DNA of 64,000 nucleotides, taken from NCBI GenBank assembly GCA_026981975.1, contig JALSHV010000011.1:1-64000 (forward strand), read 5' to 3'. Origin of the DNA: Aquificaceae bacterium (GTDB lineage Bacteria; Aquificota; Aquificia; Aquificales; Aquificaceae). The position numbers and the translations under genes were made by a program. The notes beneath the pieces are model-generated. The model had not been told where the DNA came from and did not search any database. It saw only the letters and a list, made by a program, of their open reading frames with translations. Below, piece after piece: positions 27,056-44,805 of this stretch; position 1 is the stretch's first letter, and each line of letters begins with the position of its first letter.

Positions 27056-27099
27056 ATTATACCCACTTGACAAGATAACGGATAAATCGTTATTATAAA
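27056..27099. promoter_or_regulatory. Divergent int/xis promoters over operator O1
   Basis: Plus strand: TTGACA (27067-27072), 18 bases, TATTAT (27091-27096). Minus strand: TATAAT (27061-27056) for int. Between them lies a perfect 19-base inverted repeat, ATAACG-N7-CGTTAT, at 27075-27093, identical to the 19-mer before the bet gene at 29.4 kb. A protein bound here would block both directions. Confidence 0.75.
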
Positions 27100-27103
27100 G
27101 ACT

Positions 27104-27316
27104 ATGGAAACTAAGTACTTATCTCCGAAAGCGTTTGCGGAGGTGGTGGGTTTGCATAAAAATACCGTTCTTCGCTACATCAAAGAAGGCAAGATAAAAG
27201 CTTACAGATTGAACAGAAAGGTTATCAGGATACCGTTGTCGGAAGCAGAATTGTTTTTAGCAGGGAAGCGAAGAAAAGGCAGGGGCAGGAAGCCTTCTAT
27301 AGATTTCCCTTTGTGA
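27104..27316 (+). CDS. Excisionase-like MerR-type helix-turn-helix protein
   Basis: 70 residues. LSPKAFAEVVGLHKNTVLRYIKEGKIKAYRLNRKV-type sequence is the excisionase/MerR winged helix (first-helix, turn, recognition helix, wing), followed by a basic tail (GKRRKGRGRKPS). It probably directs excision together with int. The ATG lies 7 bases after the -10 box with no Shine-Dalgarno, so the message is probably leaderless. It overlaps the convergent XRE gene by 20 bases. Confidence 0.8.
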   Translation: METKYLSPKAFAEVVGLHKNTVLRYIKEGKIKAYRLNRKVIRIPLSEAELFLAGKRRKGRGRKPSIDFPL

Positions 27317-27866
27317 GGGTGGATATGATGTCTTCCGCCTTTCTGCTTTTGAGGAACAAATACAGCACCTGGGCTTCTAAGGACGGAGACAGATTTAAAG
27401 TCCTTATAACACTTGCGAAGCTCCCCTTATGTTCTATAACCCTCATATTCTCAAATTTCAGATTCATAACTTTTCTTACAAACTCAGCGTTTACTTTTGC
27501 CCTCTGGGATATCTGGTATGCCTTGCCGAGTTTATCCACAATGCTCTTTAGTTTTTCCGACACATTCTCTGCTGTTATGTTCTTATCAACTTTCTTCAGC
27601 ATTCGCACCGCTTCGCCTGAGAAGGCAATTTTCAGGTATGCTGTGTACAGTTTTCTTTTTTCTTCTGTGGAAAGGTTCAGACCTCTTGCTATCTTTTCAA
27701 GGATTTGGACGTTAGGAAATCTTTTGCATGTAGTGTACTGGGCAACCGCTGCCTGCTGTATGCCGAGTTTTTCAGCAAGAGAATACGTGGTTTCATTATG
27801 CTTTTCCAAAAGCGTTGTGAGAACCTCTCCAAACTCACATCTCTTTTCCACTCTCCTTCTGCTCAT
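27297..27866 (-). CDS. XRE-family helix-turn-helix regulator
   Basis: 189 residues. The N-terminal HTH (TTYSLAEKLGIQQAAVAQYTT, about residues 26-46) is of Cro/CI type. The rest is helical with no peptidase motif, so it is not an autocleaving repressor. It has a good Shine-Dalgarno (AAGGAGGAG). It is divergent from the CII-like gene across operator O2 and is the only leftward regulator here, which suggests a lysogenic role. Confidence 0.8.
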   Translation of the reverse strand: MSRRRVEKRCEFGEVLTTLLEKHNETTYSLAEKLGIQQAAVAQYTTCKRFPNVQILEKIARGLNLSTEEKRKLYTAYLKIAFSGEAVRMLKKVDKNITAENVSEKLKSIVDKLGKAYQISQRAKVNAEFVRKVMNLKFENMRVIEHKGSFASVIRTLNLSPSLEAQVLYLFLKSRKAEDIISTLTKGNL

Positions 27867-27886
27867 ACCGCTCTCCTCCTTAAATA

Positions 27887-27905
27887 TTAACAGAATATCC
27901 GTTAT
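27887..27905. promoter_or_regulatory. Operator O2 between the divergent regulators
   Basis: TAAC-N9-GTTA (27888-27904), the same spacing as the other prophage operators but without the flanking CG steps. It lies between the XRE gene and the CII-like gene. Promoter hexamers here are weak on both strands. Confidence 0.6.
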
Positions 27906-27919
27906 TAGGAGGTGCCACT

Positions 27920-28411
27920 ATGAAGTATATTGAACACGTGCTACAAAATCCAGAAGAAAGTTTTGTAATCCTTAAAGCTCTCCACGATACCGTTTTCAAA
28001 GGTGAAGTTCCCGCTAAGAAGGTGGCTCATGAGCTTGGGGTTGACCTTGGTAACTTGTCTACCATGTGTTCACCCAGAAGCCTTGAAAAGGGTAAGCCCA
28101 AGTTTCCTCTTCTGTATGTCCCGAACCTGACAGAGTTAACGGGCAGGACTGATGTGGTTGAGGTTTTATGTATGCTTTGTGGCGGAGTCTTTGTAAAGGT
28201 TTCTGATATAAACGGAGAACCCTTGAAAGACTCCCTTGTAGAAGTCAAAAATCTTCTCTATCAAGTAAGCGACCTTATAGATACTTACCTGAAAGCTATT
28301 GAAGATGGCTCCATTACCGATAAAGAGTTCTCGGAAATTGAAGGTAAGTGCTTAGAGCTCGTTTCTAAAGTTCTCTCTTTGAGAGAGTGTGCCAATATTT
28401 TGGCGTATTGA
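27920..28411 (+). CDS. CII-like phage regulatory protein
   Basis: 163 residues resembling the phage CII/CP76 group: an N-terminal HTH (VPAKKVAHELGVDLGNLSTMCSPR) followed by a helical region with the pattern LTELTGRTDVVEVLCMLCGGVFVKV. Members control lysogeny decisions. It has a strong Shine-Dalgarno (AGGAGGT). Its end carries the promoter of the next gene. Confidence 0.65.
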   Translation: MKYIEHVLQNPEESFVILKALHDTVFKGEVPAKKVAHELGVDLGNLSTMCSPRSLEKGKPKFPLLYVPNLTELTGRTDVVEVLCMLCGGVFVKVSDINGEPLKDSLVEVKNLLYQVSDLIDTYLKAIEDGSITDKEFSEIEGKCLELVSKVLSLRECANILAY

Positions 28412-28435
28412 CAATTTATTTTCAAGGGGTAATAT
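28408..28435 (+). promoter_or_regulatory. Promoter of the S24 repressor
   Basis: TTGACA (28408-28413), 16 bases, TAATAT (28430-28435), overlapping the stop of the CII-like gene. The predicted transcription start is only a few bases before the GTG start at 28446. Confidence 0.55.
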
Positions 28436-28445
28436 TCTAATTCTG

Positions 28446-29048
28446 GTGAGGGAGATAGTTGAAAGAGTAAGGCTTATTGCAAGGGAGGTAGGCTCTACGA
28501 AGCTCGCTAAGATAAGCGGTGTTCAAAGATATACCATTCAGAGATTTATAGCGGGAAATAACATAACTGTGGAGAAATTTCTTCTTATATACGAGGCTCT
28601 TGAAAAGCTCGGTTACTCCTTCAGAAAAGAAGTTATAGAGTATGAACCCGTCATTCTTGGCGAACGTGTGGATGTTGTGGTAAAGCCGGTTTACGGCAGG
28701 ATAGGAGCCGGGGATGGGGTGAATGTTGAAGATATCGTCGGGCAGGTCCCTGTTCCTGTTGATTTCGGTAGACCGAAATATCTCTATTTCAAAGTTAGAG
28801 GAAATTCCATGTCGCCCGCAATAATGGACGGTGCTGTAGTAGGAATAGACACCGAGGATAAGGTCGTAGAAAACGGAAAAATCTATGTCCTTTCTCTTAA
28901 GGATGAGGGGAATGTAGTTAAGAAAGTTTACAGGAATGGTAAACATCTCATTCTCGAAAGTATGAACTCCTCTTTTCCTCCTGTTATAAAGAGGGGCGAC
29001 GAGGTCTGGGTAGTAGGCAGGGTCAGGCTTGTTATAAACCAAATTTAG
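28446..29048 (+). CDS. LexA/CI-type repressor with S24 peptidase domain
   Basis: 200 residues from the GTG at 28446. An N-terminal HTH (STKLAKISGVQRYTIQRFI) is followed by an S24 self-cleavage domain with the Ser in FKVRGNSMSPAIMDGAVV and the Lys in GNVVKKVYRNG. A cleavage-site-like Ala-Gly lies in GRIGAGDGV. Such repressors are inactivated through RecA after DNA damage. A longer in-frame reading to 28389 would run through the promoter, so I prefer the GTG, which would be read from an almost leaderless mRNA. Confidence 0.85.
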   Translation: MREIVERVRLIAREVGSTKLAKISGVQRYTIQRFIAGNNITVEKFLLIYEALEKLGYSFRKEVIEYEPVILGERVDVVVKPVYGRIGAGDGVNVEDIVGQVPVPVDFGRPKYLYFKVRGNSMSPAIMDGAVVGIDTEDKVVENGKIYVLSLKDEGNVVKKVYRNGKHLILESMNSSFPPVIKRGDEVWVVGRVRLVINQI

Positions 29049-29064
29049 TTGGAGGAGATAGACC

Positions 29065-29355
29065 ATGCTTAACTCTACCCGTAAGCTGATCGCAGAATGT
29101 CTTTCCGACGCTCAGCTTGTCTTTATATTCGGCTATACTCCTTGGGCTACTTACATACATGTTGATGGGATCAAAACCATAGAAATAACGGAAGATCATG
29201 ATTTCCAAAGGACACATTCAGCAAGGTGGACCGTAATAGAGGTGCTTGAAAGTGGCGGGTATAAAATAACCTCCGACTCTATGATAGATGCTGATAACAG
29301 GCCCCTCTCTAAGATAGTCCGGACTGTAGATGAGGTGATAGACTTGCTTTCCTGA
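29065..29355 (+). CDS. Unknown early phage protein
   Basis: 96 residues, not recognised. A mixed alpha/beta pattern with a central HVDGIKTIEITEDHDFQ and a C-terminal helix (TVDEVIDLLS). Good Shine-Dalgarno (GGAGGAG). It is the last gene of the control region, before operator O3. Confidence 0.6.
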   Translation: MLNSTRKLIAECLSDAQLVFIFGYTPWATYIHVDGIKTIEITEDHDFQRTHSARWTVIEVLESGGYKITSDSMIDADNRPLSKIVRTVDEVIDLLS

Positions 29356-29374
29356 TCCTCCCTTACTTTTCCTA

Positions 29375-29403
29375 TTGACAGATAACGGATAAATCGTTAT
29401 TAT
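29375..29403 (+). promoter_or_regulatory. Early promoter with operator O3
   Basis: TTGACA (29375-29380), 17 bases, TATTAT (29398-29403): near-consensus and probably very strong. The perfect inverted repeat ATAACG-N7-CGTTAT at 29382-29400 fills the spacer and is identical in all 19 bases to O1. It would drive the recombination and replication genes. Confidence 0.85.
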
Positions 29404-29434
29404 ATTATCTAACAAACTAAAGGAGGTGGAAGTT

Positions 29435-30460
29435 ATGAAGGCTATTGAAAGGCTGGAAACGAACGGAAGCATAAGGGAGGAGGAGCTTCAGAGGTTTATT
29501 GAGCTCACTCTTGGACCGCAACTCAAAGGCTTCCCAAAAGAGCAGATTTTAGCCGCTTTACAGGTAGCTAAGGTGAATAATCTCAATCCATGGAAGCGAG
29601 AGGTGTATTTTATTCCCTACACATTACGGAACAAGAAGGGGGAGATAATAGACAGGAAGATAGAGATCGTAACTTCTTACACGGTTTATATATCAAGAGC
29701 TTCTGCGTCTGGGTTGCTGAACGGATTTAAGGTAGATGTAGACTCCAAAGGACAGTGGGCAAAAGTAACTATATACAGGAAGAACTGGGACCACCCCTTT
29801 GAGTGGATTGTCTTTGCTGATGAGGTCAAAAGAGACACTAAAACGTGGGAGCAGATGCCCAAGTTTATGCTGAGAAAGGTTGCTATCTCGCAGGCGTTCA
29901 GGTTAGCATTCCCCGAAGTGATAGCCGGGCTTCCCTATACAAGGGAAGAGCTTCTTGGTATTGACAATGACAGCAGCGGTAATACTTCAGATAATAACGT
30001 TTTGAACGTGATTACAGAAAGCGAAGATATCAACACAGAAAGCGAAGATACCAGCAAGGTTAGGTTTGTGGAAAGTCTTTTCAATAAATATCCGGAGCTC
30101 GCCAAGGAAGTTATCCAGAAATATGTGGCTGGAGAAGACGTTGTTGTAGAAAGTGTTGAAGATGCTTATAGTATATGGGAAGAAAGCAAAGGTATAGCCA
30201 ACGATCTTCTTCCTGACTTTGCCACTGGCAAACAGAGGAAAAAAATCAAAGTTGAAGTAAACAAGCTCGGCTGGGAAAAAGAAACATACAGGACCTTTCT
30301 AAAGAATACATATGGAGTCAGTTCGTCCTTAATCCTCTCTAAGGAGGAAGCTTCTGACTGTATAGAAAGACTTACAAACCTTCAGACACTTAAAAAGGCT
30401 TCCGAAGCAGAACCCCCCGAAGAGTTTGAACAGTTTGAGAATTGCGAAGCAGGTCAGTGA
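29435..30460 (+). CDS. bet: Bet/RecT-family single-strand annealing protein
   Basis: Phage recombination annealase. The N-terminal half matches the Bet family (KVNNLNPWKREVYFIPY, IVTSYTVYISRASASGLLNGF, MLRKVAISQAFRLAFPEVIAGL). The C-terminal domain, ATGKQRKKIKVEVNKLGW..YGVSS..LSKEEASDCIE, is a small helical module often joined to such proteins. I chose ATG 29435 (341 residues), 8 bases after AAAGGAGG. No partner exonuclease of lambda-Exo type is next to it. Confidence 0.88.
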   Translation: MKAIERLETNGSIREEELQRFIELTLGPQLKGFPKEQILAALQVAKVNNLNPWKREVYFIPYTLRNKKGEIIDRKIEIVTSYTVYISRASASGLLNGFKVDVDSKGQWAKVTIYRKNWDHPFEWIVFADEVKRDTKTWEQMPKFMLRKVAISQAFRLAFPEVIAGLPYTREELLGIDNDSSGNTSDNNVLNVITESEDINTESEDTSKVRFVESLFNKYPELAKEVIQKYVAGEDVVVESVEDAYSIWEESKGIANDLLPDFATGKQRKKIKVEVNKLGWEKETYRTFLKNTYGVSSSLILSKEEASDCIERLTNLQTLKKASEAEPPEEFEQFENCEAGQ

Positions 30461-30471
30461 GGAGTGCGTAA

Positions 30472-32133
30472 ATGTTTGCGGAGGTAAGAGGGGAAGAAAT
30501 ACACTGCTACAACGCTTACGATGTTAAGGACGTGCTTAAATCGTACGGTTTCAGGTTCAACCCCGAGACCAAGTCCTGGTACGCTCCCTATACGGAGGAG
30601 CACAGGAGCATAGTGGAAAGTCTCGGGTTCAGGATTTATTCCAACGGAAACAAGAAGCTCAAGCCAGCTCTTGAACAAGCTTTGAAAGAGATGTATCCGA
30701 CAGCTCTTGATCATCAGATCCTTGCTGCCGGACTCGCTATTCAGGAGAAAAGCTTTCTTATAGGGGATGAACCCGGAGTGGGGAAGACCTACACCGCTAT
30801 TATCTACCTTGACTATCTGCTCTACACAGGAAAGATAGACTACGGTCTCGTTATATGCCCCGCTTCTATAAAGCACCAGTGGAGGTCGGAGTTCTCCAAG
30901 TGGGTTAACAGTTCCGTAATAGTTCTGGAAGGAGACAGGCACCAGAGGAGGAAGCAGTTCACCCTTGTAAAGCATCCGAGTTTCATACCTGTTTTTGTCG
31001 TCAACTTTGAACTTTTGCTTTCCAAGGATGTTATCTCCACTTTTAAGGAGCTTCCTCCCAACAGGTTTGCCATCGTGATAGATGAGGCTTCAAGGCTTAA
31101 GAACAGAGGTTCCAAAACGTATCAAGCTATCAAGAAGTTAACTAAAAGAACCCAGTGGAAGCTTGCACTAACGGGGACACCCATAGAGAACTCTCTTGTT
31201 GAGTTCTTTAACATAGCTAAACTTCTGAGAGAAGATTTTATGACCGTTGAGGAGTTTGAGGAAAGGCACCTTGAATACTTCATGCTCAACCTGTCTAATG
31301 TCCCCTTTCCTATCAAAAAAGTCAAGCGGTTCAAAAATTTGAGAGAGTTCGTCCTTCGTATCAGCCCTTTTTACATCAGGAGAAAGAAAAGCGACGTCAA
31401 GGACATGCCCGAGCTTATAAGGTATGTAAGGGAGATTCCCCAGAGTAATCTTCAGGCTGAGTTGGAGCGATTCATAGTTTCCCTGGCTGAAGACAAGTCG
31501 GGAGTACAGGCTTTGTCCGCCCTGACCCTCTTGAGAGAAGTGTGCGATGATCCGAGGCTCCTTTTAGAATCCGATTCTCCTTCAGCTCTTGAGGTGGTAG
31601 GGAAGTTCGGGGAAAAGATCCGGGCTATAAAGTCCGATCCTCCCAAGTTCGGTGAGCTTGAGGACATACTTGAAACTCACAAAGGACAGAAAGTTCTTGT
31701 ATTTACAGATTTCGCAAAGATGGCTAAGAGGATAGCCAGGAAATTCGGTGCTGTCTCTGTAACCGGAGATCTGCCCGCAAATGTAAAAGCTTCAAGGATA
31801 GGAAGGTTCAAAACGGATCCCGAGACCAATCTTCTCGTTGCTACGGATACCATGAGCTACGGGGTATCTCTTGATGAGGTTAATGTGGTGGTTCACTTTG
31901 ATGTTCCATGGAGTCTGGGAAAGGTTATCCAGAGAACAGACAGGATCTATAGGGTTTCGTCCACAAAAACTAAATACGTCTATTTCCTCGTCAGCGAAGG
32001 GATAGAAAAGAAAGTCTGGGAAGTCCTCTCTTCTAAGGAAGATCTTTTCAGGAAGGTAGTTGACGGGGAAATTCTGGACAGGGATCTTCAGCAAGAGATC
32101 CTTAAGGCTGTTTTCAGGAGGGTCAGAGTATGA
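30472..32133 (+). CDS. SNF2-type superfamily 2 helicase
   Basis: 553 residues. After a HARP-like N terminus (SYGFRFNPETKSWYAPYTEEH) come Walker A GDEPGVGKTYTA (about 98-109), VIDEASRLKN (DExx), LTGTPIENS (motif III) and a helicase C domain ending in VPWSLGKVIQRTDRIYRV (motif VI, QRxxRxxR-like). Roles in phage replication or recombination fork remodelling are known for this group. It lies between bet and the replication genes, and the ATGA overlap with the next gene implies coupling. Confidence 0.88.
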   Translation: MFAEVRGEEIHCYNAYDVKDVLKSYGFRFNPETKSWYAPYTEEHRSIVESLGFRIYSNGNKKLKPALEQALKEMYPTALDHQILAAGLAIQEKSFLIGDEPGVGKTYTAIIYLDYLLYTGKIDYGLVICPASIKHQWRSEFSKWVNSSVIVLEGDRHQRRKQFTLVKHPSFIPVFVVNFELLLSKDVISTFKELPPNRFAIVIDEASRLKNRGSKTYQAIKKLTKRTQWKLALTGTPIENSLVEFFNIAKLLREDFMTVEEFEERHLEYFMLNLSNVPFPIKKVKRFKNLREFVLRISPFYIRRKKSDVKDMPELIRYVREIPQSNLQAELERFIVSLAEDKSGVQALSALTLLREVCDDPRLLLESDSPSALEVVGKFGEKIRAIKSDPPKFGELEDILETHKGQKVLVFTDFAKMAKRIARKFGAVSVTGDLPANVKASRIGRFKTDPETNLLVATDTMSYGVSLDEVNVVVHFDVPWSLGKVIQRTDRIYRVSSTKTKYVYFLVSEGIEKKVWEVLSSKEDLFRKVVDGEILDRDLQQEILKAVFRRVRV

Positions 32134-33773
32134 GAAACAGTCCTGTAATTCGTGTGCCTAACAGTCGGGTTGTGGTTCTTAGGGAGGATCTTATTAGTGC
32201 TTGCGATGGGGCTTTGGAAACAGCCGTTTTTATATCCCTTCTTGAGTACTGGACCACCGTCAAGCGAAGGATGAAAAATCAGATAGAGCATGAAAACAAA
32301 GCCCGGGAGCAGGAAGGTCTTCCCCCCCTTCCTCTTGATGAAGAAGACTTTGAGTGGGTGTATAAAACATACGAAGAATGGATTGAGGAGAGCCTCGGAC
32401 TTCTGACACGGCACTCTTTGAAAAAAGCTATCAGACACGCCCAGGAACTCGGGTTTGTATCTATACGCAGAAATCCGAAGTATCGGTGGGATAAGACGCA
32501 CCAGTACCGTCTGAACGTTGATGCTCTGAATAGGAAACTTGAAGAGGTGGTTCAAACCCTTGAAACACATGATAGGTCGTCAGCGACCTATCGTAAGAAC
32601 GAATTCGTCCTATCGGAAAGCAGAAATCGTCCTATGGAAGGGTTGAATTCGTCCTATGGAAAGGTCAAAACCGACCCAGCAATACCAGAGATTACTATAC
32701 AGAGATTACATACAGAGAAAGAGAATATAGAAAGGGAAGATACTTACGTATCTTCCGATACCCTTGAAAGGGTATCATCCAATAATACCCACCCTCCCAC
32801 CCCCGGCAACCATACAGACTCACAAAGTAGTTCCTCCTATGTAGAGGAGACAACCAGTAAAGAAGGGGGCGGGGTGCGGGACCCGGTTTTCGACGGACTC
32901 ATTGAAGTGCTCCAGGGAAAAACCTCAAGGCTTACTGAGTGGGTTGAAGCTGTTGAAGAGATTCACAGTAAGGTGGGATGGGATGAGAGAGCTAACCGGT
33001 ATCTCGGAGAGCTTATAGAGAAAACCTTTATTACCCCTAAGCGTCTGCTTTCTGTTCTGAACGGCAGGTCCGGGGAGATAGCGAAGAAGTATGGAACGCA
33101 TCACTGTCTGAAGCTTATTCTTGACAGGGTTAATACAGCTGTTGAGTCCGGGGACAGGAAAACGAAAACCCTTATAGGAGAGTTAACTCTCAAGAACCAC
33201 AGGAAGCTTGAGCTTGACCCTAAGGTGGTGTACGACGTGTATGTTGCAGCTGTGGAGAGGTTTCCGGAATTCCGCCCTATCCCGTGGTCAGAGACCCTCA
33301 GGAGGCGGATCCTGGAGATAATGAAGAGGTCAGCGAGGTTCAGGGATATTGGTTTTTGGGAAAAGCTTTTCAGAAAAGCCCGCGATTATGTAGCTTATTT
33401 GAGTGAGCGGAAGAAAGGGGAGCAAACGAGGGATCTCTTCTGGATACTGAACGACAAGGTTTTTGAGTGGATAGAAGCTGATACGAGAAAGGAATTTGCG
33501 ATTGTGACTATTAAGCTGGGTGAGAAGTTCATCAACGACCTTAAAGAACGTCTTGAGGAGCAGGTTCTTGAAGTATTGAAAAAGGACATGTTTGCCAGCG
33601 TGGCCAGCTACTCAAAGAACGGGGATGGTCTTTTGCTGTCTGCGTGGAAGCCCTCTCCTTTAGTGCAAGCTTTGGACAAGGCTGGCAGTGTTGAGCGATT
33701 TCTTGAAGTGTTTTACAGACCTGAGTATGTTCAAAGGATTTTTAAGGAGGTAAAGAAAGATGGGGAAACTTGA
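32130..33773 (+). CDS. Phage replication-organiser-like protein
   Basis: 547 residues. The N terminus (1-130) reads as a winged-helix DNA-binding domain (GALETAVFISLLEYWTTVKRR, YEEWIEESLGLLTRHSLKKAIRHAQELGFVSI), typical of phage replisome organisers and DnaD-like initiators. A low-complexity, Ser/Thr-rich linker (about 180-260) leads to a helical C-terminal half. Its place just before the DnaB helicase supports a role in origin recognition or helicase loading. No DnaD signature was certain. Confidence 0.7.
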   Translation: MRNSPVIRVPNSRVVVLREDLISACDGALETAVFISLLEYWTTVKRRMKNQIEHENKAREQEGLPPLPLDEEDFEWVYKTYEEWIEESLGLLTRHSLKKAIRHAQELGFVSIRRNPKYRWDKTHQYRLNVDALNRKLEEVVQTLETHDRSSATYRKNEFVLSESRNRPMEGLNSSYGKVKTDPAIPEITIQRLHTEKENIEREDTYVSSDTLERVSSNNTHPPTPGNHTDSQSSSSYVEETTSKEGGGVRDPVFDGLIEVLQGKTSRLTEWVEAVEEIHSKVGWDERANRYLGELIEKTFITPKRLLSVLNGRSGEIAKKYGTHHCLKLILDRVNTAVESGDRKTKTLIGELTLKNHRKLELDPKVVYDVYVAAVERFPEFRPIPWSETLRRRILEIMKRSARFRDIGFWEKLFRKARDYVAYLSERKKGEQTRDLFWILNDKVFEWIEADTRKEFAIVTIKLGEKFINDLKERLEEQVLEVLKKDMFASVASYSKNGDGLLLSAWKPSPLVQALDKAGSVERFLEVFYRPEYVQRIFKEVKKDGET

Positions 33774-33939
33774 ATTCAAGAAATTGATCAAAACGCTTAA
33801 GAGGATCTGGGAAGCGTTACCAAAAAACTGGGACTTTACTGCACAGCAACGGATTTGGCGAAGAAGATATGAGAATTACATAAGAATGTTAGAAAAAAGC
33901 GAGGGAGAAAAAAGTAGAAAAGCAAGTCAAGGGAACTGA
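33760..33939 (+). CDS. Small basic protein, unknown
   Basis: 59 residues, with aromatic and basic content (WEALPKNWDFTAQQRIWRRRY). It starts inside the previous gene (14-base overlap) 9 bases after AAGGAGG and stops one base before the next ATG. Good translation signals support it. The function is not recognised. Confidence 0.6.
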   Translation: MGKLEFKKLIKTLKRIWEALPKNWDFTAQQRIWRRRYENYIRMLEKSEGEKSRKASQGN

Positions 33940-33940
33940 T

Positions 33941-34111
33941 ATGAGAGACAGGAATGCTGGGAAGGTAACGCTTTTCCATGTGTGTATGGGTGGTGCTGAG
34001 CATAGAGCCTTCCGGTTTTTTGATGACAAAGCTCTGAACCTTTTAGTAGCAGCGTCCATGCTTGAGAGCGAAACGAGATGTATGGTAGCAGGGCGTGGGA
34101 GTATGCTCTAA
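33941..34111 (+). pseudogene. N-terminal fragment of the TGT/DpdA-like gene
   Basis: 56 codons beginning with KVTLFHVCMGGAEHRAF, which looks like the start of a transglycosylase-like barrel (a beta strand followed by a gene-family HxxxG/GxEH-type turn). The frame ends at 34111, just where the next reading frame, one base out of phase, takes over. Adding one base in the overlap (34066-34108) would join the two into one protein of about 280 residues. It may be a frameshift mutation, a sequence error or two separately translated pieces. Confidence 0.5.
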
Positions 34112-34776
34112 ATCCTGAAAAGGTCCTTGAAATCCAGCTGCAGATAGATCCTGATGTGATAGCTCACGTTGATATACCCTGCGAGATAGAAATACTCCGT
34201 AGACTCGGAACGAATAGACCGACTGCTATCTCCCAGACTGTCTACAATGCTCTCTGGATAGTTGAGAAGAAAGAGTCTGGAGACGAAAGATTAAAGAACC
34301 GAATAGTTGTTATTGGAGTTCAGGGATATACGAAGGAAGATTACGGGCGTTGCTTAGAGCAGTATCGGAATTTCGGCTTTTTTGATCTGGATCCTGCAAA
34401 GTACTGGTTTGCGATTGGTAGCGTTTGTATGAGAAAGCCTCCTGAGCTTTACAGGATAGTTGAATTTGTGAGGGCAAGCATTCCTGATGAGTATCATGTC
34501 CACTGCTATGGTATAGCTAACCCCGTGTGGGTTCTGGAGCTCGGGAGATTTGGAGTTAATTCTGTTGACAGTGCAACAGGGACCTATGCGGCTGGAATGT
34601 TTCGTTTTATAGATGTAGGAGGGCAACGGAAAATACTCAAACTGAAAAGGAAGAACAAGTATATGTTCGCTGCTCTTACGGCTTTTAATTGGATGAGTCT
34701 TGAGATCCAGATAGAGGATGGAGTACAGGTTGAACAACAGCACCTTTTTGCAGATTGTGAGGTGTGCTGGAGATGA
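34078..34776 (+). CDS. tRNA-guanine-transglycosylase-like (DpdA-like) protein, main part
   Basis: 232 residues of a TGT-superfamily barrel: VLEIQLQIDPDVIAHVDIPCEI, VVIGVQGYTKEDYGRCLEQYRNFGF, WFAIGSVCMRKPP, HVHCYGIANPVWVLEL and GVNSVDSATGTY. The Asp of VDSAT sits where TGT has its nucleophile. In phages this family (DpdA) puts 7-deazaguanines into DNA. The N-terminal strand and the DSGA-type motif are missing from this frame and seem to lie in the upstream fragment. No queC/D/E genes are in the window. It overlaps dnaB as ATGA. Confidence 0.65.
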   Translation: MYGSRAWEYALNPEKVLEIQLQIDPDVIAHVDIPCEIEILRRLGTNRPTAISQTVYNALWIVEKKESGDERLKNRIVVIGVQGYTKEDYGRCLEQYRNFGFFDLDPAKYWFAIGSVCMRKPPELYRIVEFVRASIPDEYHVHCYGIANPVWVLELGRFGVNSVDSATGTYAAGMFRFIDVGGQRKILKLKRKNKYMFAALTAFNWMSLEIQIEDGVQVEQQHLFADCEVCWR

Positions 34777-37617: not shown

Positions 37618-37731
37618 ATGCTTGCAACACGAAAGGCGGAAGGCTTTTGGATGGTAAAGAGTGGAACGATATGCCTTTCAATGCGGGGGTTGTTGGATGA
37701 TAGTGGTGTTGGTCAGCGGCGGAAAGGATAG
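37618..37731 (+). CDS. Possible 37-residue leader ORF
   Basis: An ATG directly after the previous stop, 6 bases behind AGGAGG, opens a 37-codon frame that runs into the next gene in another phase. The signals are good but the product is unremarkable. It may serve to couple translation into the PAPS-reductase-like gene, whose own start has a poor ribosome site. Confidence 0.3.
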   Translation: MLATRKAEGFWMVKSGTICLSMRGLLDDSGVGQRRKG

Positions 37732-38524
37732 CACCGCCTCACTTGTATTAGCGTTAGAAGAATTTGGTAATAGAGAGGTTATTGGTATATTTACCGACAC
37801 GGGTTGGGAGGCGGAATGTACTTACAGGTATCTGGATTACTTAGAGAATAAGCTCGGAGTTAGGATCCTCAGGCTCAGGAATGAACGATGGAACGGACTG
37901 CTGGATCTAATTGAAAAGAAAAAAAGGTTTCCTTCAGCTCTTTTCCGGTTCTGCACTGCCCACTTTAAAATAGTTCCTGTTGCGGAATTTCTTGCAAACA
38001 CAGACATACCGATAAAAGAAATTTGGATCGGTATAAGACGGGATGAAAGCCGTTCAAGGAAAAAAAGGTACTCAGCGTATTTAAGTGATGCGACTTATGA
38101 TTACCATGAGTGGCTTTCTTCTGTTTCCGGTGGTGATGTCAGGAAGGCAATTATTGAGAGAATAAAGGAAAAGAACATCAAAATCAGATTTCCCATTTTA
38201 GACTGGAGCTCGGAGGATGTCCTTACCTTTCTTGCAAGGAGAGGAATAACCCTTAATCCGTTATATTTGCGGGGACACAGGAGGGTTGGGTGTTACCCAT
38301 GTGTCTTGGGAAGTTTGAATGAGTTCAGGCTTTGCTGGAAAGACGAGGAAGGGAAAAGAAACATTATTCGGTTTGCGGAGGTAGAGAACAGATTGAGGTC
38401 CAGAGGCTACATGGCAAGACTAAAAGACGGTATGACTGCTAAGCAATTGATAAAGAGGCTTGAACAACAGGATCTACAGCTGGACATGTTTTGTGAGGAA
38501 AGCTGTGAAATTTGCAGAATATAA
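37697..38524 (+). CDS. PAPS-reductase-family protein (N-type ATP pyrophosphatase)
   Basis: 275 residues. The PP-loop SGGKDS is at residues 7-12, with IFTDTGWEAE, FCTAHFKIVPV and WIGIRRDESRSR in the middle, and Cys motifs late in the chain (GCYPC and CEESCEIC), which could hold an Fe-S cluster. The family adenylates a substrate and then reduces or sulfurates it; phage and island members (IbrA, DndC) often go with ParB-like or DNA-modification genes, and a ParB-like gene lies at 47 kb here. I chose ATG 37697 over a GTG at 37661. Confidence 0.82.
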   Translation: MIVVLVSGGKDSTASLVLALEEFGNREVIGIFTDTGWEAECTYRYLDYLENKLGVRILRLRNERWNGLLDLIEKKKRFPSALFRFCTAHFKIVPVAEFLANTDIPIKEIWIGIRRDESRSRKKRYSAYLSDATYDYHEWLSSVSGGDVRKAIIERIKEKNIKIRFPILDWSSEDVLTFLARRGITLNPLYLRGHRRVGCYPCVLGSLNEFRLCWKDEEGKRNIIRFAEVENRLRSRGYMARLKDGMTAKQLIKRLEQQDLQLDMFCEESCEICRI

Positions 38525-38538
38525 GGAGGTTCAGCAAG

Positions 38539-38769
38539 ATGGGTGAGTTCAGATGGGCGGGCGGACGGCTCTGGGTTTATGAAGGAGATCCTCCCAAGGA
38601 TAAGCCCAGATTAGACAGAGTTCCTGTTCCCGCTGTCAAAAAGAGCACTCCCGATATAATTCCCGGCCTCGAATGGCGGATAAGTGGTAAAGATGGCGTT
38701 TGGAACGTATTGGAACGTAAGGGTGGAAAACGAATTTACATATGGGGAGTTCACCGGCATGTCCCTTAA
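38539..38769 (+). CDS. Small unknown phage protein
   Basis: 76 residues from ATG 38539, 8 bases after AAGGAGGT. Short beta pieces (FRWAGGRLWVYEGD, GLEWRISGKDGVWNVLERKGGKRIYIWG). Not recognised. Confidence 0.5.
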   Translation: MGEFRWAGGRLWVYEGDPPKDKPRLDRVPVPAVKKSTPDIIPGLEWRISGKDGVWNVLERKGGKRIYIWGVHRHVP

Positions 38770-38857
38770 TGAAGCTATGGAAAGAGCATTGGATATTCTT
38801 GTTGTAAAAACAGAGCGGATTTTGAGGAATAAAGCAGGAGGTAGCACAAATGAATGA
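38693..38857 (+). CDS. Possible small protein overlapping its neighbour
   Basis: A 54-codon frame (TYWNVRVENEFTYGEF..SLNEAMERALDILVVKTERIL) overlaps the 3' part of the previous gene and ends within the next start. The sequence looks protein-like (a beta strand then a helix), but the start has little ribosome signal. GTG 38723 and ATG 38759 are alternatives. Confidence 0.35.
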   Translation: MAFGTYWNVRVENEFTYGEFTGMSLNEAMERALDILVVKTERILRNKAGGSTNE

Positions 38858-39644
38858 GATTACAGCTTTTAACCAGCTCAGACCCGCCATCGTTAGGGAA
38901 GCTGAAGATGCCAGGAGTATAGTTCAGTTCATTGAGCAGGCCGCCAAGGAGATTGAGTCAAAGTTTATTGCAATAGGGAAATACCTATGCAAGATGTACG
39001 ACAGAGAGCTTTACAGAGACCTCGGGTATAAGTCCATATGGGAGTTTATAGATGCTAACCCCAATCTGAACTTTGAAAGACGAACCGCTGAAATGTTGAT
39101 GAGGATCTGGAGGTTTTTTGGCGAGGGAGGGAAGTTTCCCATATCCACGAATACGCTTGCGGAGGTCGGATACGCCAAGAGCTATCTGCTCACCAGACTG
39201 TATGAGGAAGGAGTGCTCACCAAAGAAAACTTGAATGACTGGATACAGAAAGCCAAAGAAAACACATACAGAAAGTTCAAGCTTTTTGTAGACGAAGCTC
39301 TTGGAAAGGAACCACCCTCAGAGGAAGAGTTGAACTGGAAGACTGTCAGCTTCAGGATTCCCCCGGGGTATGAGGAGAGCATAGAGGAAGCTATAAACGT
39401 GATGGCTCAGATTGAAGGGGTAGAAGAACAGGAGGAGATCAAGAAGAGGAGAGGTGATTTTCTTGTAAAGATCCTTGAGGACTGGGTTGGATATTACAGC
39501 ATCATATATCAAAAGGAAGAACTGCGAAACAACGAAGCTCTTAAGGAGTTCAAGCTTAGACAGGTCAAGGGTTTAATAGAAAAGACCTTTGAAGATGTTG
39601 TTCTTGTGGTAATAGACAGAGAGACCAACAGGAGGATACTATAA
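38850..39644 (+). CDS. Unknown helical phage protein
   Basis: 264 residues, mostly helical. Residues 20-95 (FIEQAAKEIESKFIAIGKYLCKMYDRELYRDLGYKSIWEF..) resemble DUF3102-like plasmid and phage proteins. The second half is charged and may coil. AGGAGG precedes the start. It is the last gene before operator O5. Confidence 0.6.
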   Translation: MNEITAFNQLRPAIVREAEDARSIVQFIEQAAKEIESKFIAIGKYLCKMYDRELYRDLGYKSIWEFIDANPNLNFERRTAEMLMRIWRFFGEGGKFPISTNTLAEVGYAKSYLLTRLYEEGVLTKENLNDWIQKAKENTYRKFKLFVDEALGKEPPSEEELNWKTVSFRIPPGYEESIEEAINVMAQIEGVEEQEEIKKRRGDFLVKILEDWVGYYSIIYQKEELRNNEALKEFKLRQVKGLIEKTFEDVVLVVIDRETNRRIL

Positions 39645-39646
39645 CC

Positions 39647-39675
39647 TTGACTAATAACGTATAAAGCGTTATTAT
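39647..39675 (+). promoter_or_regulatory. Early promoter with operator O5
   Basis: TTGACT (39647-39652), 17 bases, TATTAT (39670-39675). The perfect inverted repeat ATAACG-N7-CGTTAT is at 39654-39672. The central seven bases differ from O1/O3, so conservation is confined to the half-sites. It drives the beta-clamp gene. Confidence 0.8.
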
Positions 39676-39706
39676 ATTTTCCAATAAACCAACGGAGGTA
39701 AGGAAG

Positions 39707-40996
39707 ATGGAAGTTAAGGAAGAGCTTTTCAAAAATCTTGGAGGCACACCCCAGGAAATATATGATAAACTTGCTGATGCGGTTGGAGAGGAGACAGCTT
39801 GGTCGCTTCTGGGGGAAGCAATAGATTACTGTCGCAGGGAGGGAACTTTAAATCCAGCGGAATCGGAGGAGCTGGTTGCCGAACAGAAAACACCTTTTCA
39901 TGTCACAGTTAACAGAGAAGCTTTTATAGACACACTGGCTGGACTTCCCTATGAGAAGAAGACAGCTCTCCCTATTCTTTCCTGCATAGTTATAGAGGGT
40001 ATTGCTGGTTCTTATTTCGGATCGTTGCAGCTCTGGGGTACAGATCTTGAGCTGTTTGGGAAAGTTCTCTTTCCGAAGTGTGATGTACACTCCGGCGGTT
40101 CCGTCTGTGTTAGTTACACGAAGCTGATCGGCGTTTTGAAGAACCTTGATGTTGAGGAAGTTGAGTTAAAACAAGAAGGAGACTCCCTTGTTGTGAGATG
40201 GGAAGAAGGCGAGTACAAGATTCCCACGGTTTCAATTTCAGATTTTCCAGCCTTCCCTAATCCTGCTGTTATTCGGAAGAAGAAACTTGAGATCCCCGTA
40301 CCTGTTTTCATAGAGGGAGTAAAATCGGTTGCCTATGCTGTTGCCAAGGATGATTCAAGGTTATCTCTTCAAACAGTCCACATAAGAGTGATTGGAGACG
40401 AGCTCCATTTTGTAGGATCTGATGGGCACAGACTTGTTTTAAAGAAGTACAGAGATCTTCAGGGTCTTGAAGATGGATTTAGCGTAAACCTGCCACCCAA
40501 GAGTACCAGGTATATAGAGAAGATGGCTGAGGGAGGAACTGTTATTGTAGAACAGGCTTTGAACTTCATAAAGATCGGTGCAACAACAGGTACTCTTTGG
40601 ATCAGGGAAGTAGAAGGCGAATACCCGGATTACCTCAGTGTGATCCCTACAAGCTTTGAGTGCGAAGCTGAGGTGTCTGTCAGCAAGCTAAGCAACGTGC
40701 TGAAGAGGATTATTTCTTTTATGTCTGTTAATCTTGGTGTCAAGTTTTCTGTATCTCAATCTCAAGGTACGTTAAGGATCTTCTTTGAGGATCAGGAAGA
40801 AGGTTCCGGGGAGGAAAGGGTAGAAGTTGTTAGCGCTCATGGAGAAATGGAGGTAGGCTTTAACCCTAAGTATTTGCTTGATTTTCTGAAAGGGACAAAA
40901 GCTGAGACTGTTAGGGTCAAGTTTACTTCTCCTGACACAGCAGCCGTGTTAGAGAGCGGGGAGGCTACATATGTTGTTATGCCGATGAGGATCTGA
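39707..40996 (+). CDS. dnaN: Phage-encoded DNA polymerase III beta sliding clamp homologue
   Basis: Ring-shaped processivity factor. 429 residues: about 65 extra N-terminal residues (a helical segment, IYDKLADAVGEETAWSLLGEAIDYCRREG) precede a full three-domain clamp. Clamp marks include KTALPILSCIVIEG, SDFPAFP, DDSRLSLQTVHIRV, FVGSDGHRLVLKKY, EGEYPDYLSVIP, GFNPKYLLDFLKG and the C-terminal TYVVMPMRI. The host has its own clamp elsewhere by necessity. Phage clamps of this bacterial type are uncommon. It may capture host Pol III. Confidence 0.88.
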   Translation: MEVKEELFKNLGGTPQEIYDKLADAVGEETAWSLLGEAIDYCRREGTLNPAESEELVAEQKTPFHVTVNREAFIDTLAGLPYEKKTALPILSCIVIEGIAGSYFGSLQLWGTDLELFGKVLFPKCDVHSGGSVCVSYTKLIGVLKNLDVEEVELKQEGDSLVVRWEEGEYKIPTVSISDFPAFPNPAVIRKKKLEIPVPVFIEGVKSVAYAVAKDDSRLSLQTVHIRVIGDELHFVGSDGHRLVLKKYRDLQGLEDGFSVNLPPKSTRYIEKMAEGGTVIVEQALNFIKIGATTGTLWIREVEGEYPDYLSVIPTSFECEAEVSVSKLSNVLKRIISFMSVNLGVKFSVSQSQGTLRIFFEDQEEGSGEERVEVVSAHGEMEVGFNPKYLLDFLKGTKAETVRVKFTSPDTAAVLESGEATYVVMPMRI

Positions 40997-40999
40997 AAT

Positions 41000-41278
41000 A
41001 TGGGTAGTCAGTATATTGAACTTTCTGTTAGTGGTATTAATGTAACTCTTGTAAGGTTTGACAGCAAAGAGTTTGTGGAGGTTGACGCTATAGCAGTTTC
41101 CCAAAAAGGAGAAGGTGTTGCGGCTATTAAGATGAATCTTGCTTATGGAACGGTGGACATTACGGTCTCAGGAACTGAGAGATTCAAGAATGATTTAGTT
41201 GGTATAGTTGTCACTCTGGTTGAGCGCATAGCCCTTGAAGGTATTGGTATTATAAATAGCGGGTTTTCTTTCAACTGA
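41000..41278 (+). CDS. Unknown phage protein
   Basis: 92 residues, not recognised. Beta-rich start (IELSVSGINVTLVRFDSKEFVEVDAI) and a hydrophobic C-terminal helix (DLVGIVVTLVERIALEGIGII). It starts 3 bases after the clamp gene without a clear Shine-Dalgarno, so it probably relies on coupled translation. Confidence 0.55.
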   Translation: MGSQYIELSVSGINVTLVRFDSKEFVEVDAIAVSQKGEGVAAIKMNLAYGTVDITVSGTERFKNDLVGIVVTLVERIALEGIGIINSGFSFN

Positions 41279-41282
41279 GAAG

Positions 41283-41429
41283 TTACTTGTCTTGAGTTTT
41301 ATTCTTGTCCGTTTCCAACCACAACTTTATAGCCTCTCTTAGAGCTTCCGCAACCGTTTTGCCTTCCATCACAGCTTTGCCTTTGAACTGTCTCCAGAGA
41401 GGGTCATCTGATTTGTCGCAATCCCTCAT
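41283..41429 (-). CDS. Small leftward gene, unknown
   Basis: 48 codons on the minus strand. The sequence DDPLWRQFKGKAVMEGKTVAEALREAIKLWLE matches the style of small thermophile proteins with a ribbon-helix-helix-type C-terminal helix pair. It runs against the early operon. No Shine-Dalgarno precedes its ATG. It could be a gene expressed during lysogeny. Confidence 0.5.
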   Translation of the reverse strand: MRDCDKSDDPLWRQFKGKAVMEGKTVAEALREAIKLWLETDKNKTQDK

Positions 41430-41541
41430 TTTTTAGGGATTATTGCAACTGACAATTAACAAAACCTCAAAGAAAGCTTCAGCTATGAGGAGCTGAAGGA
41501 GATTTTCGGCATTAGCTGAGCGATTGCTATAATATCCGTTA
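41430..41541 (+). promoter_or_regulatory. Intergenic region: repeat, hairpin and promoter of the 41.5-kb gene
   Basis: A 23-base stretch at 41450-41472 is nearly repeated at 42876. CTTCAGCT (41477-41484) and AGCTGAAG (41491-41498) form an 8-pair hairpin with no T-run. TATAAT (41528-41533) ends 8 bases before the ATG at 41542. The -35 is poor. Confidence 0.45.
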
Positions 41542-42420
41542 ATGAGGTGGGAGGAGTTGGATCAGAAGGCGAGGAATCGTATAATCAATAGAACGGATAC
41601 GATCTTCAAAAGGCTCATTGAGAAAGGTTACATCGGTCCCCGGCAAGGAGGCAGAGGACTTCTCGGTTATGGAAACAGGCTCAACAAACTGATGGACGCT
41701 TACGAGCGGGAGATAAAACCTTCTGCAGGCAATATATGGGTGAGTGGTTTGGATAGCCCTAAGGTTTTTGAAAGGGGGCAGACTTTTTTGAAGATGCTTC
41801 TCAGAGCAATGCACGTTATGTATGGGACAAGCGATGAGGCTTGGAGGAATTGTTACAGGAGAGCGGTTGAGTGGCTGGAGAATCACGGGGAGAAAATTCC
41901 CGCTGCTGTTTGGGAAGATATTAAGAAGTTTGAGGCTTCCTTTGAACCCAAGGACAATGTTGTAGAAAACGAAAGCCAGCTTTATGAAAAAGTTGCTCAA
42001 TGGATTGCTAAAGATATTGGTCTGAGCGAAGAAGATGAGGTCTATTACGGGAATATACACTCACCGCTCAAGTGGGGGAATCCTGACGTTGTGGGTGTAA
42101 GAAAATTGGAGGGAAAACCTTCTTATGTTATAGCGGCGGAGGTCAAGAACACAATCAGCACAAGGCTTGTATTTGAAGGTTTCGGTCAAGCTTGTGCATA
42201 TAAGCTCTTTTCTCATATGCAATACCTTGTGATTCCTGCGGATGTGGAAGAGGAGACTCTGATGAGGTTAAAAAGCTTATGCAGGAAGGTTCAGGTGAGG
42301 CTTGTGGTGTTTACTGCGGAAAATCCTGAGAAAATAACTTTTACCCTTGAAGAAGGTGCCAAAGATGAGCCCCCTGATCCGAAGCTCATGAAGGAGTTCT
42401 TGGAGAAGTTGAGAAAGTGA
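41542..42420 (+). CDS. Unknown protein with restriction-endonuclease-like C-terminal domain
   Basis: 292 residues. The first 150 are helical. Residues 155-265 hold a PD-(D/E)xK-like core: WGNPDVVGVRKLEGKPSYVIAAEVKN gives D...ExK, then VFEGFGQACAYKLFSHMQYLVIP. It may be a nuclease with a role against other phages or in host DNA breakdown. The ATG follows a TATAAT box by 8 bases, so a leaderless message is likely; no Shine-Dalgarno precedes it. Confidence 0.6.
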   Translation: MRWEELDQKARNRIINRTDTIFKRLIEKGYIGPRQGGRGLLGYGNRLNKLMDAYEREIKPSAGNIWVSGLDSPKVFERGQTFLKMLLRAMHVMYGTSDEAWRNCYRRAVEWLENHGEKIPAAVWEDIKKFEASFEPKDNVVENESQLYEKVAQWIAKDIGLSEEDEVYYGNIHSPLKWGNPDVVGVRKLEGKPSYVIAAEVKNTISTRLVFEGFGQACAYKLFSHMQYLVIPADVEEETLMRLKSLCRKVQVRLVVFTAENPEKITFTLEEGAKDEPPDPKLMKEFLEKLRK

Positions 42421-42441
42421 TTATACAAAGCATACCAAATC

Positions 42442-42762
42442 TCATTTCAACCACTCCGAGATTTCTTTTTTGTGCTCTAAGAGAGGTTTGTAAACCCTGT
42501 ATAGAATTGCCAGTTCTTTCATCACCGGAAAGAGTTCTTCACGGGTGGTTCTTTTGAGGTTTATATATTTGCCCGCATAATAAGCTCGTATTGCTACTGA
42601 AGGCTTTTTCCCTCTGTTTGGCTTAGAAGTTGTGCTTGTATAGAGTTTGGAGTAAATACCCCGTAGTATAGTTTTTATTTGACTGTCTGTCAACTCAAGC
42701 TTAACACACCTGGCCTTGATAGCTTCTTTAAGCTCTTTGATCAAACCTTCAATATTGTGCAT
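42442..42762 (-). CDS. Leftward gene of unknown function with its own promoter
   Basis: 106 residues, basic and helical (HNIEGLIKELKEAIKARCVKLELTDSQIKTILRGI). Not recognised. A strong minus-strand promoter with a palindromic operator precedes it (next entry), with TATTAT only 6 bases before the ATG, hence a leaderless mRNA. Its orientation opposes its neighbours, which suggests expression in the lysogen, perhaps as a superinfection or regulatory function. Confidence 0.6.
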   Translation of the reverse strand: MHNIEGLIKELKEAIKARCVKLELTDSQIKTILRGIYSKLYTSTTSKPNRGKKPSVAIRAYYAGKYINLKRTTREELFPVMKELAILYRVYKPLLEHKKEISEWLK

Positions 42763-42768
42763 AGCTAT

Positions 42769-42799
42769 ATAATAGAGTTATAAACTTGAACAGTCAAGT
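42769..42799 (-). promoter_or_regulatory. Minus-strand promoter with palindrome ACTTGA-N4-TCAAGT
   Basis: On the minus strand TTGACT (42797-42792), 17 bases, TATTAT (42774-42769). The perfect palindrome at 42784-42799 covers the -35. This operator differs from the TAAC-N9-GTTA family, so a separate regulator, possibly the gene's own product, is likely. Confidence 0.7.
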
Positions 42800-42841
42800 G
42801 GTTTCATAAAGTTAGCTTATATAAATCATAAGTTTTTAATA

Positions 42842-42949
42842 TTGCGTATGTCTAATTAGAGCTATACAATATTATTGACAATTAACAAACCTCAAAGGAG
42901 GTGAAGGAAGATGGTGATTGGGATGTGGATAACAGATCATAAATCTTGA
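42842..42949 (+). promoter_or_regulatory. Promoter, repeat and 12-codon leader ORF before the 42.9-kb gene
   Basis: TTGCGT (42842-42847), 17 bases, TACAAT (42865-42870). Downstream, 42876-42897 nearly repeats 41450-41472. A short ORF at 42911-42949 (12 codons) has a strong Shine-Dalgarno (AAAGGAGG) and ends 12 bases before the next start, the shape of a leader peptide. Confidence 0.45.
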
Positions 42950-42961
42950 GGAGGTAGAGTG

Positions 42962-43759
42962 ATGGAGACAAGAGACATTAAGAAAATCATCAAGGAAGTG
43001 CTCGGACGACCTTCACATGTTAAGTCAGAAGGATCATTCAAGAAGGTGTCCATTGATTTTGGTGGTTTTGTCTGGTTTTTTACCCTCCATGAAGACACAA
43101 CAGAGAAAACCCTGAAGAACATTCTTGTGAGGATGAAGCAGGCTGTAGAAGTAGCTACAGAGAGAGGATACAGGATATACGGTGGGTATGAAGGAGACTT
43201 GAGGATTTTCAGAGACCAGTCAACTATGGAAGTTGAGGGCATACCAAGTTACCAGGCACAGCAAATGTTTGAGCTTATGGAGGAGAACATGAAGCTTTTT
43301 AAAACCCTGGAAACTTACTGGATCGGGTCTAAACCGAAGAGGTTTGCGGACAAGAAGCTCTACAGATTACTGAGGGTAGCTGAGGAGATGATAAAAATGG
43401 GGTATACGGTATTAATACATGGTGGGGGTGTTGGGGATCCATGGCTTGAAGTAAAAAGTGAAAGGTGGGTTGTAAGTGTACATGATTTGGAGATGTTGAC
43501 CCTCGTCTATCCTCTCGTGAGGTTTGCTTCCGAGGCAAGCAAGATATCCATTAGCGGAAGATTCTATATAGGTAGGGATGCGGGCGTGCATGTGCCTTAT
43601 AAACACGGAGAAATGAATCCAGACGACCTGTATCTCGCTGTCGCACTGATGAAGGAATACGGGATTACTTCAGCGGAGATATACCATGAAGAAGGTGATA
43701 TTCGGGTTGAATACCCGCTGATAATTAATAACGTTCAGAACGTTATTGAAAAATTGTGA
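42962..43759 (+). CDS. Unknown phage protein
   Basis: 265 residues from ATG 42962 (GTG 42959 also possible), 8 bases after GAGGAGG. Not recognised. Alternating strands and helices, with two similar Gly-rich turns (GGGVGDPWLEV, YIGRDAGVHVPYKHG) suggesting an internal duplication of a small alpha/beta unit. Its last codons contain the palindromic operator O7. Confidence 0.55.
   Translation: METRDIKKIIKEVLGRPSHVKSEGSFKKVSIDFGGFVWFFTLHEDTTEKTLKNILVRMKQAVEVATERGYRIYGGYEGDLRIFRDQSTMEVEGIPSYQAQQMFELMEENMKLFKTLETYWIGSKPKRFADKKLYRLLRVAEEMIKMGYTVLIHGGGVGDPWLEVKSERWVVSVHDLEMLTLVYPLVRFASEASKISISGRFYIGRDAGVHVPYKHGEMNPDDLYLAVALMKEYGITSAEIYHEEGDIRVEYPLIINNVQNVIEKL
43727..43747. promoter_or_regulatory. Operator O7 in a gene end, 21-base palindrome
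   Basis: AATAACGTTC-A-GAACGTTATT, perfect over 10+10 bases, containing the ATAACG-N7-CGTTAT pattern (43728-43746) at the same spacing as O1-O6. It lies within the final codons of the upstream gene and 25 bases before the next start. No TATTAT box follows, so it is an operator without its usual promoter. Confidence 0.65.
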
Positions 43760-43771
43760 GGAGGATATGTG

Positions 43772-44008
43772 ATGAAAGAGGTTCTTGTCTTTAAGGAACA
43801 AGGGGGCATTGTTAGGCTTGATTTGGACTTTTACAGGGAATTTGTATCTTTCAGGGTGGATGGGACAGTCATACTCAGATTTGTTGGCGGGATGGAATGG
43901 AGAAAGATAGAGCGTATTACAGCGACCGCATGCTGTAAAGAGTATTTTCTTTCCTCTCCGTTGAAGGTTTTAGGGATGGAAGATATCAGGAAGAAGGTGC
44001 AGTCATGA
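43772..44008 (+). CDS. Small unknown phage protein
   Basis: 78 residues from ATG 43772 behind GAGGAGG. Beta-rich (KEVLVFKEQGGIVRLDLDFYREFVSF). Not recognised. Confidence 0.5.
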   Translation: MKEVLVFKEQGGIVRLDLDFYREFVSFRVDGTVILRFVGGMEWRKIERITATACCKEYFLSSPLKVLGMEDIRKKVQS

Positions 44009-44040
44009 GGTAGGAATTATTGCAACATTGGAGGTGGGAC

Positions 44041-44334
44041 ATGAAATGGGAGCCCTCTAGGACCCAAGATGTGTTAGATGTGGCTATTAAAGATGGGGTG
44101 AAGCTCCGCTACGGGAAAGATGGCAATACAGAGTGGTGGGAATGGTGGAAGAGAAACAGGGGCATAGTCTTCCAGCGCACAGGTGAAAGCTTGTGGTGTT
44201 TTTTCTTTATCTCGGGGGAAGTTATTGAGACTCCTACGATTCCCACCAGGAATGGGAGCAGGTTAATTGTTTTTGAGACTATTAGTCAAGGAATTGAATT
44301 TCTCAAAGAACTTGGCGTGGAGGTGAGGCAATAA
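44041..44334 (+). CDS. Small Trp-rich unknown phage protein
   Basis: 97 residues from ATG 44041 behind GGAGGTGGG. Contains TEWWEWWKRNRGIVFQRTGESLWCFFF. The pattern of a strand, an aromatic cluster and a C-terminal helix (ISQGIEFLKELGVEV) is not recognised. It is preceded by an ATTATTGCAAC stretch that also occurs near 41.44 kb. Confidence 0.5.
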   Translation: MKWEPSRTQDVLDVAIKDGVKLRYGKDGNTEWWEWWKRNRGIVFQRTGESLWCFFFISGEVIETPTIPTRNGSRLIVFETISQGIEFLKELGVEVRQ

Positions 44335-44345
44335 GGAGGTTTGGT

Positions 44346-44777
44346 ATGCCGAGCGCAAGAGTTAAAAGATTCATTCGGAGAACCTTTGAGATTAACAGGG
44401 AAAAGCTTATAAACAGAGATTACAGGGACGATATTTCGGATACTTTTCCCGAGTACTTGCCCAAAGAGTGGATTTACAAGAGGGTGTCTCTCGGGGAGGA
44501 GCTGTTCAAGTGGACTGTTTACGCTTTTGTCTATTACTACGGTGAAGACGCCTTTATCATACCTCTGAGCAAGTGGTTTGCGGAAAGGGGGATAGACCTG
44601 CTCATCCCAGAAGATGGCCTACCCCGATACAGGGTCAGCGTAACTAAAGCTATAGAGCATATAGAAAAGAGGATAGACAGCATTGAAGCCCAGTTATCCG
44701 AGCTCAGAACTCTACTTGAACACCTTAAGAGCATCGCAGAATCCGGAATAGAGATGGAGGTTGATTTTGCTTTTTGA
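44346..44777 (+). CDS. Unknown phage protein with C-terminal coiled coil
   Basis: 143 residues. The start is basic (ARVKRFIRRTFEINREKL). The end (TKAIEHIEKRIDSIEAQLSELRTLLEHLKSIAES) is a clear heptad coiled coil, so it should form oligomers. The middle part resembles small helix-turn-helix folds but not certainly. Good AAGGAGG. Confidence 0.55.
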   Translation: MPSARVKRFIRRTFEINREKLINRDYRDDISDTFPEYLPKEWIYKRVSLGEELFKWTVYAFVYYYGEDAFIIPLSKWFAERGIDLLIPEDGLPRYRVSVTKAIEHIEKRIDSIEAQLSELRTLLEHLKSIAESGIEMEVDFAF

Positions 44778-44783
44778 TTTTTG

Positions 44784-44805
44784 ATAACGTTTAGTTTGTT
44801 ATTAT
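44784..44805 (+). promoter_or_regulatory. Promoter with operator O6
   Basis: Operator ATAACG-N7-TGTTAT at 44784-44802, TATTAT at 44800-44805. The -35 is poor (ATTTTT at 17 bases, or TTGATT at 19), so this promoter may need help. It opens the group of genes leading to the modification island. Confidence 0.7.

Follow-up and report, generated by a model that had tools for sequence, protein, structure and literature searches.

A TAAC-N9-GTTA palindrome repeated across an Aquificaceae prophage is a probable dispersed repressor operator

The palindrome TAAC-N9-GTTA recurs in a prophage of an Aquificaceae bacterium, and we consider it probable, at roughly three chances in four, that it is the dispersed repressor operator of this prophage. 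The genes for a T4-type portal, a major head protein and a tail sheath show a contractile-tailed phage. In the window (the whole 64-kb stretch of DNA analysed), a tyrosine integrase gene (26038–27066, minus strand) lies beside tRNA-Pro and tRNA-Arg (25733–25898). It is followed by genes for an excisionase/Cox-like HTH_17 protein (27104–27316, plus strand), a divergent XRE regulator (Cro/C1-type HTH; 27297–27866, minus strand; Pfam HTH_3, PHROG transcriptional regulator), a CII-like regulator (Phage_CP76; 27920–28411, plus strand) and an S24 LexA/CI-like repressor with an N-terminal HTH-like region (28446–29048, plus strand), and then by those for RecT, an SNF2 helicase, a ribbon-helix-helix protein and a sliding clamp. 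The prophage continues beyond the window as far as the contig end (73923), and its right attachment site was therefore not seen. A sister prophage is present in a genome of the same genus (G011), on contigs C263 (WFPN01000263.1, Aquificaceae bacterium MAG) and C329, with protein identities of 49–50% for XRE, 70% for S24, 73% for RecT and 86% for the sheath.

The window contains 8 exact TAAC-N9-GTTA matches, every one within 27076–44801, whereas 100 dinucleotide shuffles of the window averaged 1.02 and never exceeded 4. Pattern searches of the genome (1.61 Mb, 29 contigs) returned 37 exact matches, versus 13 for the reversed control pattern; 29 of the 37 are spread over the ~1.55 Mb outside the window, at roughly chance density. 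The original prediction had staked its operator claim on the density elsewhere in the chromosome, and the near-background value found there leaves the claim standing. For the extended form TNAC-N9-GTTATTA, 13 of 16 genome matches fall in the prophage; of the 10 matches in the sister genome, all 10 fall in its prophage contigs. Many intergenic or promoter positions of a single prophage thus share the element, which is rare outside it. We then surveyed every 4-base arm at spacings of 0–20 (5376 palindrome types; Poisson p, uncorrected). TAAC-N9 ranked first in 26900–45000 (8 found vs 0.24 expected, p 2e-10), first in the whole prophage (26900–73923; 9 found, p 6e-9) and, independently, first in sister contig C329 (6 found, p 1.5e-6); multiplied by 5376, these p-values are still below 0.01. 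In the same survey, it was not among the top types in adjacent host DNA (1–26000). A weight matrix built solely from the sister's eleven sites was also scanned over the 74-kb contig, taking the better strand: all twelve sites of the window and contig scored at least 16, and the best score in host DNA (1–26000) was 12.4. Taken together, these results confirm that the clustering of TAAC-N9-GTTA in the prophage is real.

A pattern scan found exact copies at all seven places listed in the original prediction, and a promoter scan bore out the −35/−10 setting described there (our coordinates give the start of TAAC, one base after the ATAAC start used before). Between the divergent integrase and xis-like genes, TAACGGATAAATCGTTA (27076–27092, plus strand; sister C263:5675) is set in TTGACA-18-TATTAT (27067). 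The same 17 bases recur without any change at 29383–29399 (plus strand; sister C263:3303) within the recT promoter, TTGACA-17-TATTAT (29375), in line with the earlier statement that two copies are identical. The next two copies are TAACGTTTTATCTGTTA (36144–36160, plus strand; sister C329:2305), 5′ of a double ribbon-helix-helix gene with TTGACA-16-TATTAT (36137), and TAACGTATAAAGCGTTA (39655–39671, plus strand), 5′ of a DNA polymerase sliding-clamp gene with TTGACT-17-TATTAT (39647); the latter has no counterpart in the sister, where the corresponding region is rearranged. In a genome pattern search, the full promoter-embedded form occurred without mismatch only at 29375 and 39647. At TAACGTTTAGTTTGTTA (44785–44801, plus strand; sister C329:12510), 5′ of a SWIM-domain gene (44824), TATTAT is present without a good −35, again as predicted. 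The promoter scan showed no recognisable promoter at two sites: TAACAGAATATCCGTTA (27888–27904, plus strand; sister C263:4861), which lies between the divergent XRE and CII-like genes, and the operator-like TAACGTTCAGAACGTTA (43729–43745, plus strand; sister C329:11261), which occupies the last codons of ORF 42959–43759 before gene 43769, and where the coding stretch QNVIE is also conserved in the sister. The eighth exact match (38247–38263, plus strand), absent from the original list, was set aside as an operator because it is intragenic (ORF 37661–38524) and, at 14.1, scores below every other exact site with the sister-trained matrix; it is probably a chance match.

Several other features of this region were observed. 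A near-perfect copy, TAACGTTTTGAACGTGA, lies inside recT (29995–30011) and scores as high on the matrix as real sites, and there is none in the sister's recT. The −10 boxes of the integrase and xis-like genes (27048–27104) are very close to the ATG, likewise in the sister, so both mRNAs may be leaderless. The ribbon-helix-helix gene (36183–36491), itself located behind an operator, encodes two such domains in one chain and is a possible later regulator. A small minus-strand gene (42442–42762), 75% identical in the sister, is a candidate lysogen-expressed gene; its operator-free promoter (TTGACT-17-TATTAT, 42797) overlaps an inverted repeat of its own, ACTTGA-CTGT-TCAAGT. In the sister, an exact site that is found only there, TAACGAAGTTTCTGTTA (C329:8780), lies ~80 bases from where the homologue of this gene ends.

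The claim that one prophage regulator acts through a shared operator is strongly supported by the palindrome survey, the conservation of the arms in syntenic pairs and the shifting promoter register described below, but limiting it to silencing of the early region understates its reach: the element is also present at late structural operons (portal, capsid, tail sheath, baseplate region). In the matrix scan, late-type sites, T[C/T/A][A/G]C-N9-GTTATTA, showed up before five late operons. On the plus strand of the window these are TCACACTTTGTATGTTA (49718–49734), before gene 49764 and the terminase region and a perfect palindrome in the sister (C329:17245); TAGCGTATTGTATGTTA (52645–52661), before the portal gene (sister C329:25689); TCACATTTAATATGTTA (54681–54697), before gene 54692 and the capsid genes and perfect in the sister (C329:27717); and TTACATTCAATATGTTA (61471–61487), before the tail-sheath operon (sister C329:34558). 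The fifth, at 71229, is beyond the window on the same contig. Most late sites have TATGTT inside the right half and a TTG box 16–17 bases upstream, and often a ribosome-binding site immediately 3′; given this spacing and the ribosome-binding site directly after, TATGTT is more likely than TATTAT to be the −10 of the late operons.

Eleven sites occupy the same gene boundaries in the two prophages. Over these syntenic pairs, identity is 31% in the upstream flank, 89% in the left arm, 57% in the N9 centre, 100% in the right arm and 91% in the next four bases, which agrees with the original view that the half-sites are kept while the centre varies. The promoter of the ribbon-helix-helix gene is informative here: in the sister, TTGACA is ~5 bases further upstream of the palindrome than in the window, and the palindrome is retained. 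Because the palindrome holds its form as the promoter shifts relative to it, it is a binding element in its own right and not mere promoter consensus. Contig C14 of G062, a more distant relative whose major head protein is 47% identical, has two perfect copies, one (C14:3470) ahead of its gene 54692 homologue and the other (C14:9926) ahead of the sheath-operon homologue. The arms of the 11 pairs, set against their flanks, and the two perfect sites of this relative show that selection keeps the sites across relatives. A point against the operator reading is that no XRE, S24 or CII homologue was detected in the G062 genome despite its late-operon motif, although the assembly may lack the early region. 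Beyond these genomes, XRE, RecT and S24 queries found no relatives among viral contigs, the sister contig was the only match of XRE among genome contigs, XRE queries against phages gave nothing beyond weak HTH matches in Gordonia phages, and tail-sheath relatives among viral contigs had just scattered single motif matches.

A protein placed between −35 and −10 normally blocks RNA polymerase, as lambda-type and LexA-type repressors do. We infer binding, repression, the identity of the binder and induction from sequence, repression in particular from the position of the sites. A dimeric helix-turn-helix protein would bind both arms, which overlap the spacer and −10 of most prophage promoters, and RNA polymerase would be blocked. 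In the lysogen, the early operons would be silent, as would the late operons through weaker variants of the site.

Which protein reads the operator is a closer call. We favour the S24 protein, at what we regard as an even chance, because its own conserved promoter has no site: TTGACA-16-TAATAT (28408–28435, plus strand) is conserved in both prophages and operator-free in both, so that S24 can be made while other genes are off. S24 would thus be produced in the lysogen while the remaining prophage genes are off, and its LexA-type Ala-Gly and Ser/Lys dyad would allow RecA-triggered self-cleavage, leading to induction. The protein has a peptidase S24 domain (Pfam PF00717, E 3e-20) in which the scissile Ala-Gly, the GNSM serine motif and the lysine of the dyad align with LexA. 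At its N terminus, a PHROG repressor profile covers residues 4–197 and four helices fall in residues 2–54 of a poor structure model (mean pLDDT 50), with no Pfam HTH match. S24 homologues at 36–40% identity (G036, G048) have no motif nearby, but their recognition helices differ and the loci may not be prophages; across the order, the S24-homologue loci that we fetched also lacked the motif, except for one stray match in G028, and their HTH regions differ.

The same operator might instead be read by XRE (27297–27866), which would repress its own gene and the other operons, with S24 acting elsewhere; we regard this as a serious possibility, albeit one with the odds against it. XRE is a Cro/C1-type HTH protein, and a 17-bp palindrome fits a Cro/C1 dimer. 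Its gene, conserved in the sister, is placed like that of a phage immunity repressor, divergent from the CII-like gene with an operator between them, but there is an operator in its own promoter, which lacks a clear −35, and the protein is without a cleavage domain. The recognition-helix region of XRE has also diverged more between the prophages (IQQAAVAQY vs TLQPTLAQY in the sister) than that of S24 (VQRYTIQRF vs LRRYTIQRF), though the arms are alike. Foldseek searches with the XRE model gave weak matches only, the best being SaPI Stl (E 0.017); the HTH domain resembled C.BclI and P22 c2, and model confidence was low beyond that domain. Since XRE, the CII-like protein and S24 all persist in both prophages, co-occurrence cannot separate the candidates. 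If S24 is the binder, XRE may act as a Cro-like competitor at the same sites.

An activator reading, in which an activator encoded by the phage (a CII-like protein or a late regulator) turns the operons on through the element, appears unlikely. The uniform orientation of the sites, with GTTATT downstream in 22 of 22 paired sites, would suit it, as would TATGTTATTA, common to the late sites, with a TTG −35 box mostly at 16–17 bases. However, the early sites have near-consensus −35 and −10 boxes at spacings of 16–18 and so need no activator, a protein bound between the two boxes normally represses, and the promoter register moves while the palindrome stays. Chance, or conservation of the −10 box plus a fortuitous left arm, has very little left to recommend it: intergenic DNA is AT-rich, the right half overlaps TATTAT and one exact match of the eight (38247) is probably accidental, but first rank among 5376 palindromes in two prophages, a left arm 89% identical next to a flank at 31% and the near absence of the extended form from the rest of both genomes rule it out for the whole set, if not for every single site. 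Within the repressor reading, we tentatively entertain, as a rather doubtful extension, one palindrome used in two registers, perfect over the early TATTAT and graded and asymmetric over the late TATGTT, in which case early and late timing would be under the direct control of one regulator, or of a CI/Cro-like pair, and no dedicated late activator or antiterminator would be needed.

Operators scattered over a temperate phage have precedents. In bacteriophage P1, C1 operators are scattered over many operons, as here, but the P1 sites are asymmetric, whereas those described here are palindromic, and C1 is not known to be of the LexA type. Phage lambda has 17-bp palindromic operators common to a cleavable CI and a Cro-type HTH protein; these are clustered in two tripartite operators, unlike the single sites found here over ~44 kb, late operons included. 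The stoperators of Cluster A mycobacteriophages (L5, Bxb1) are likewise many copies of one site over a phage genome (up to ~30), but they are asymmetric 13-bp sites that also stop elongation (PMC6550527, PMC9283540), whereas the sites here are 17-bp palindromes, mostly on promoters. In Bacillus subtilis SPbeta, SPBRE elements were first found by sequence alone, and ChAP-seq later showed that MrpR binds about ten promoter regions (PMC10516654). The likeness lies in a short conserved element that recurs in promoter regions throughout a prophage, bound in SPbeta by the master repressor that keeps lysogeny; the difference is that MrpR has a tyrosine-recombinase fold and SPBRE is a different 15-bp motif (PMC10516654), while the putative binders here are HTH proteins. 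The dispersed-operator principle is therefore already known, and SPbeta is its closest precedent. To our knowledge, what is new here is the site itself, the host lineage and the reach into late operons; our literature search turned up no work on a prophage repressor in Aquificaceae.

Collectively, these results provide a testable lysogeny-control operator for thermophilic Aquificaceae, available in some twelve natural variants and in a diverged set from the sister, and would extend direct prophage-wide control to late structural operons. If the two-register reading is true, early and late timing would be set by a single regulator in a lineage in which phage gene control has hardly been studied.
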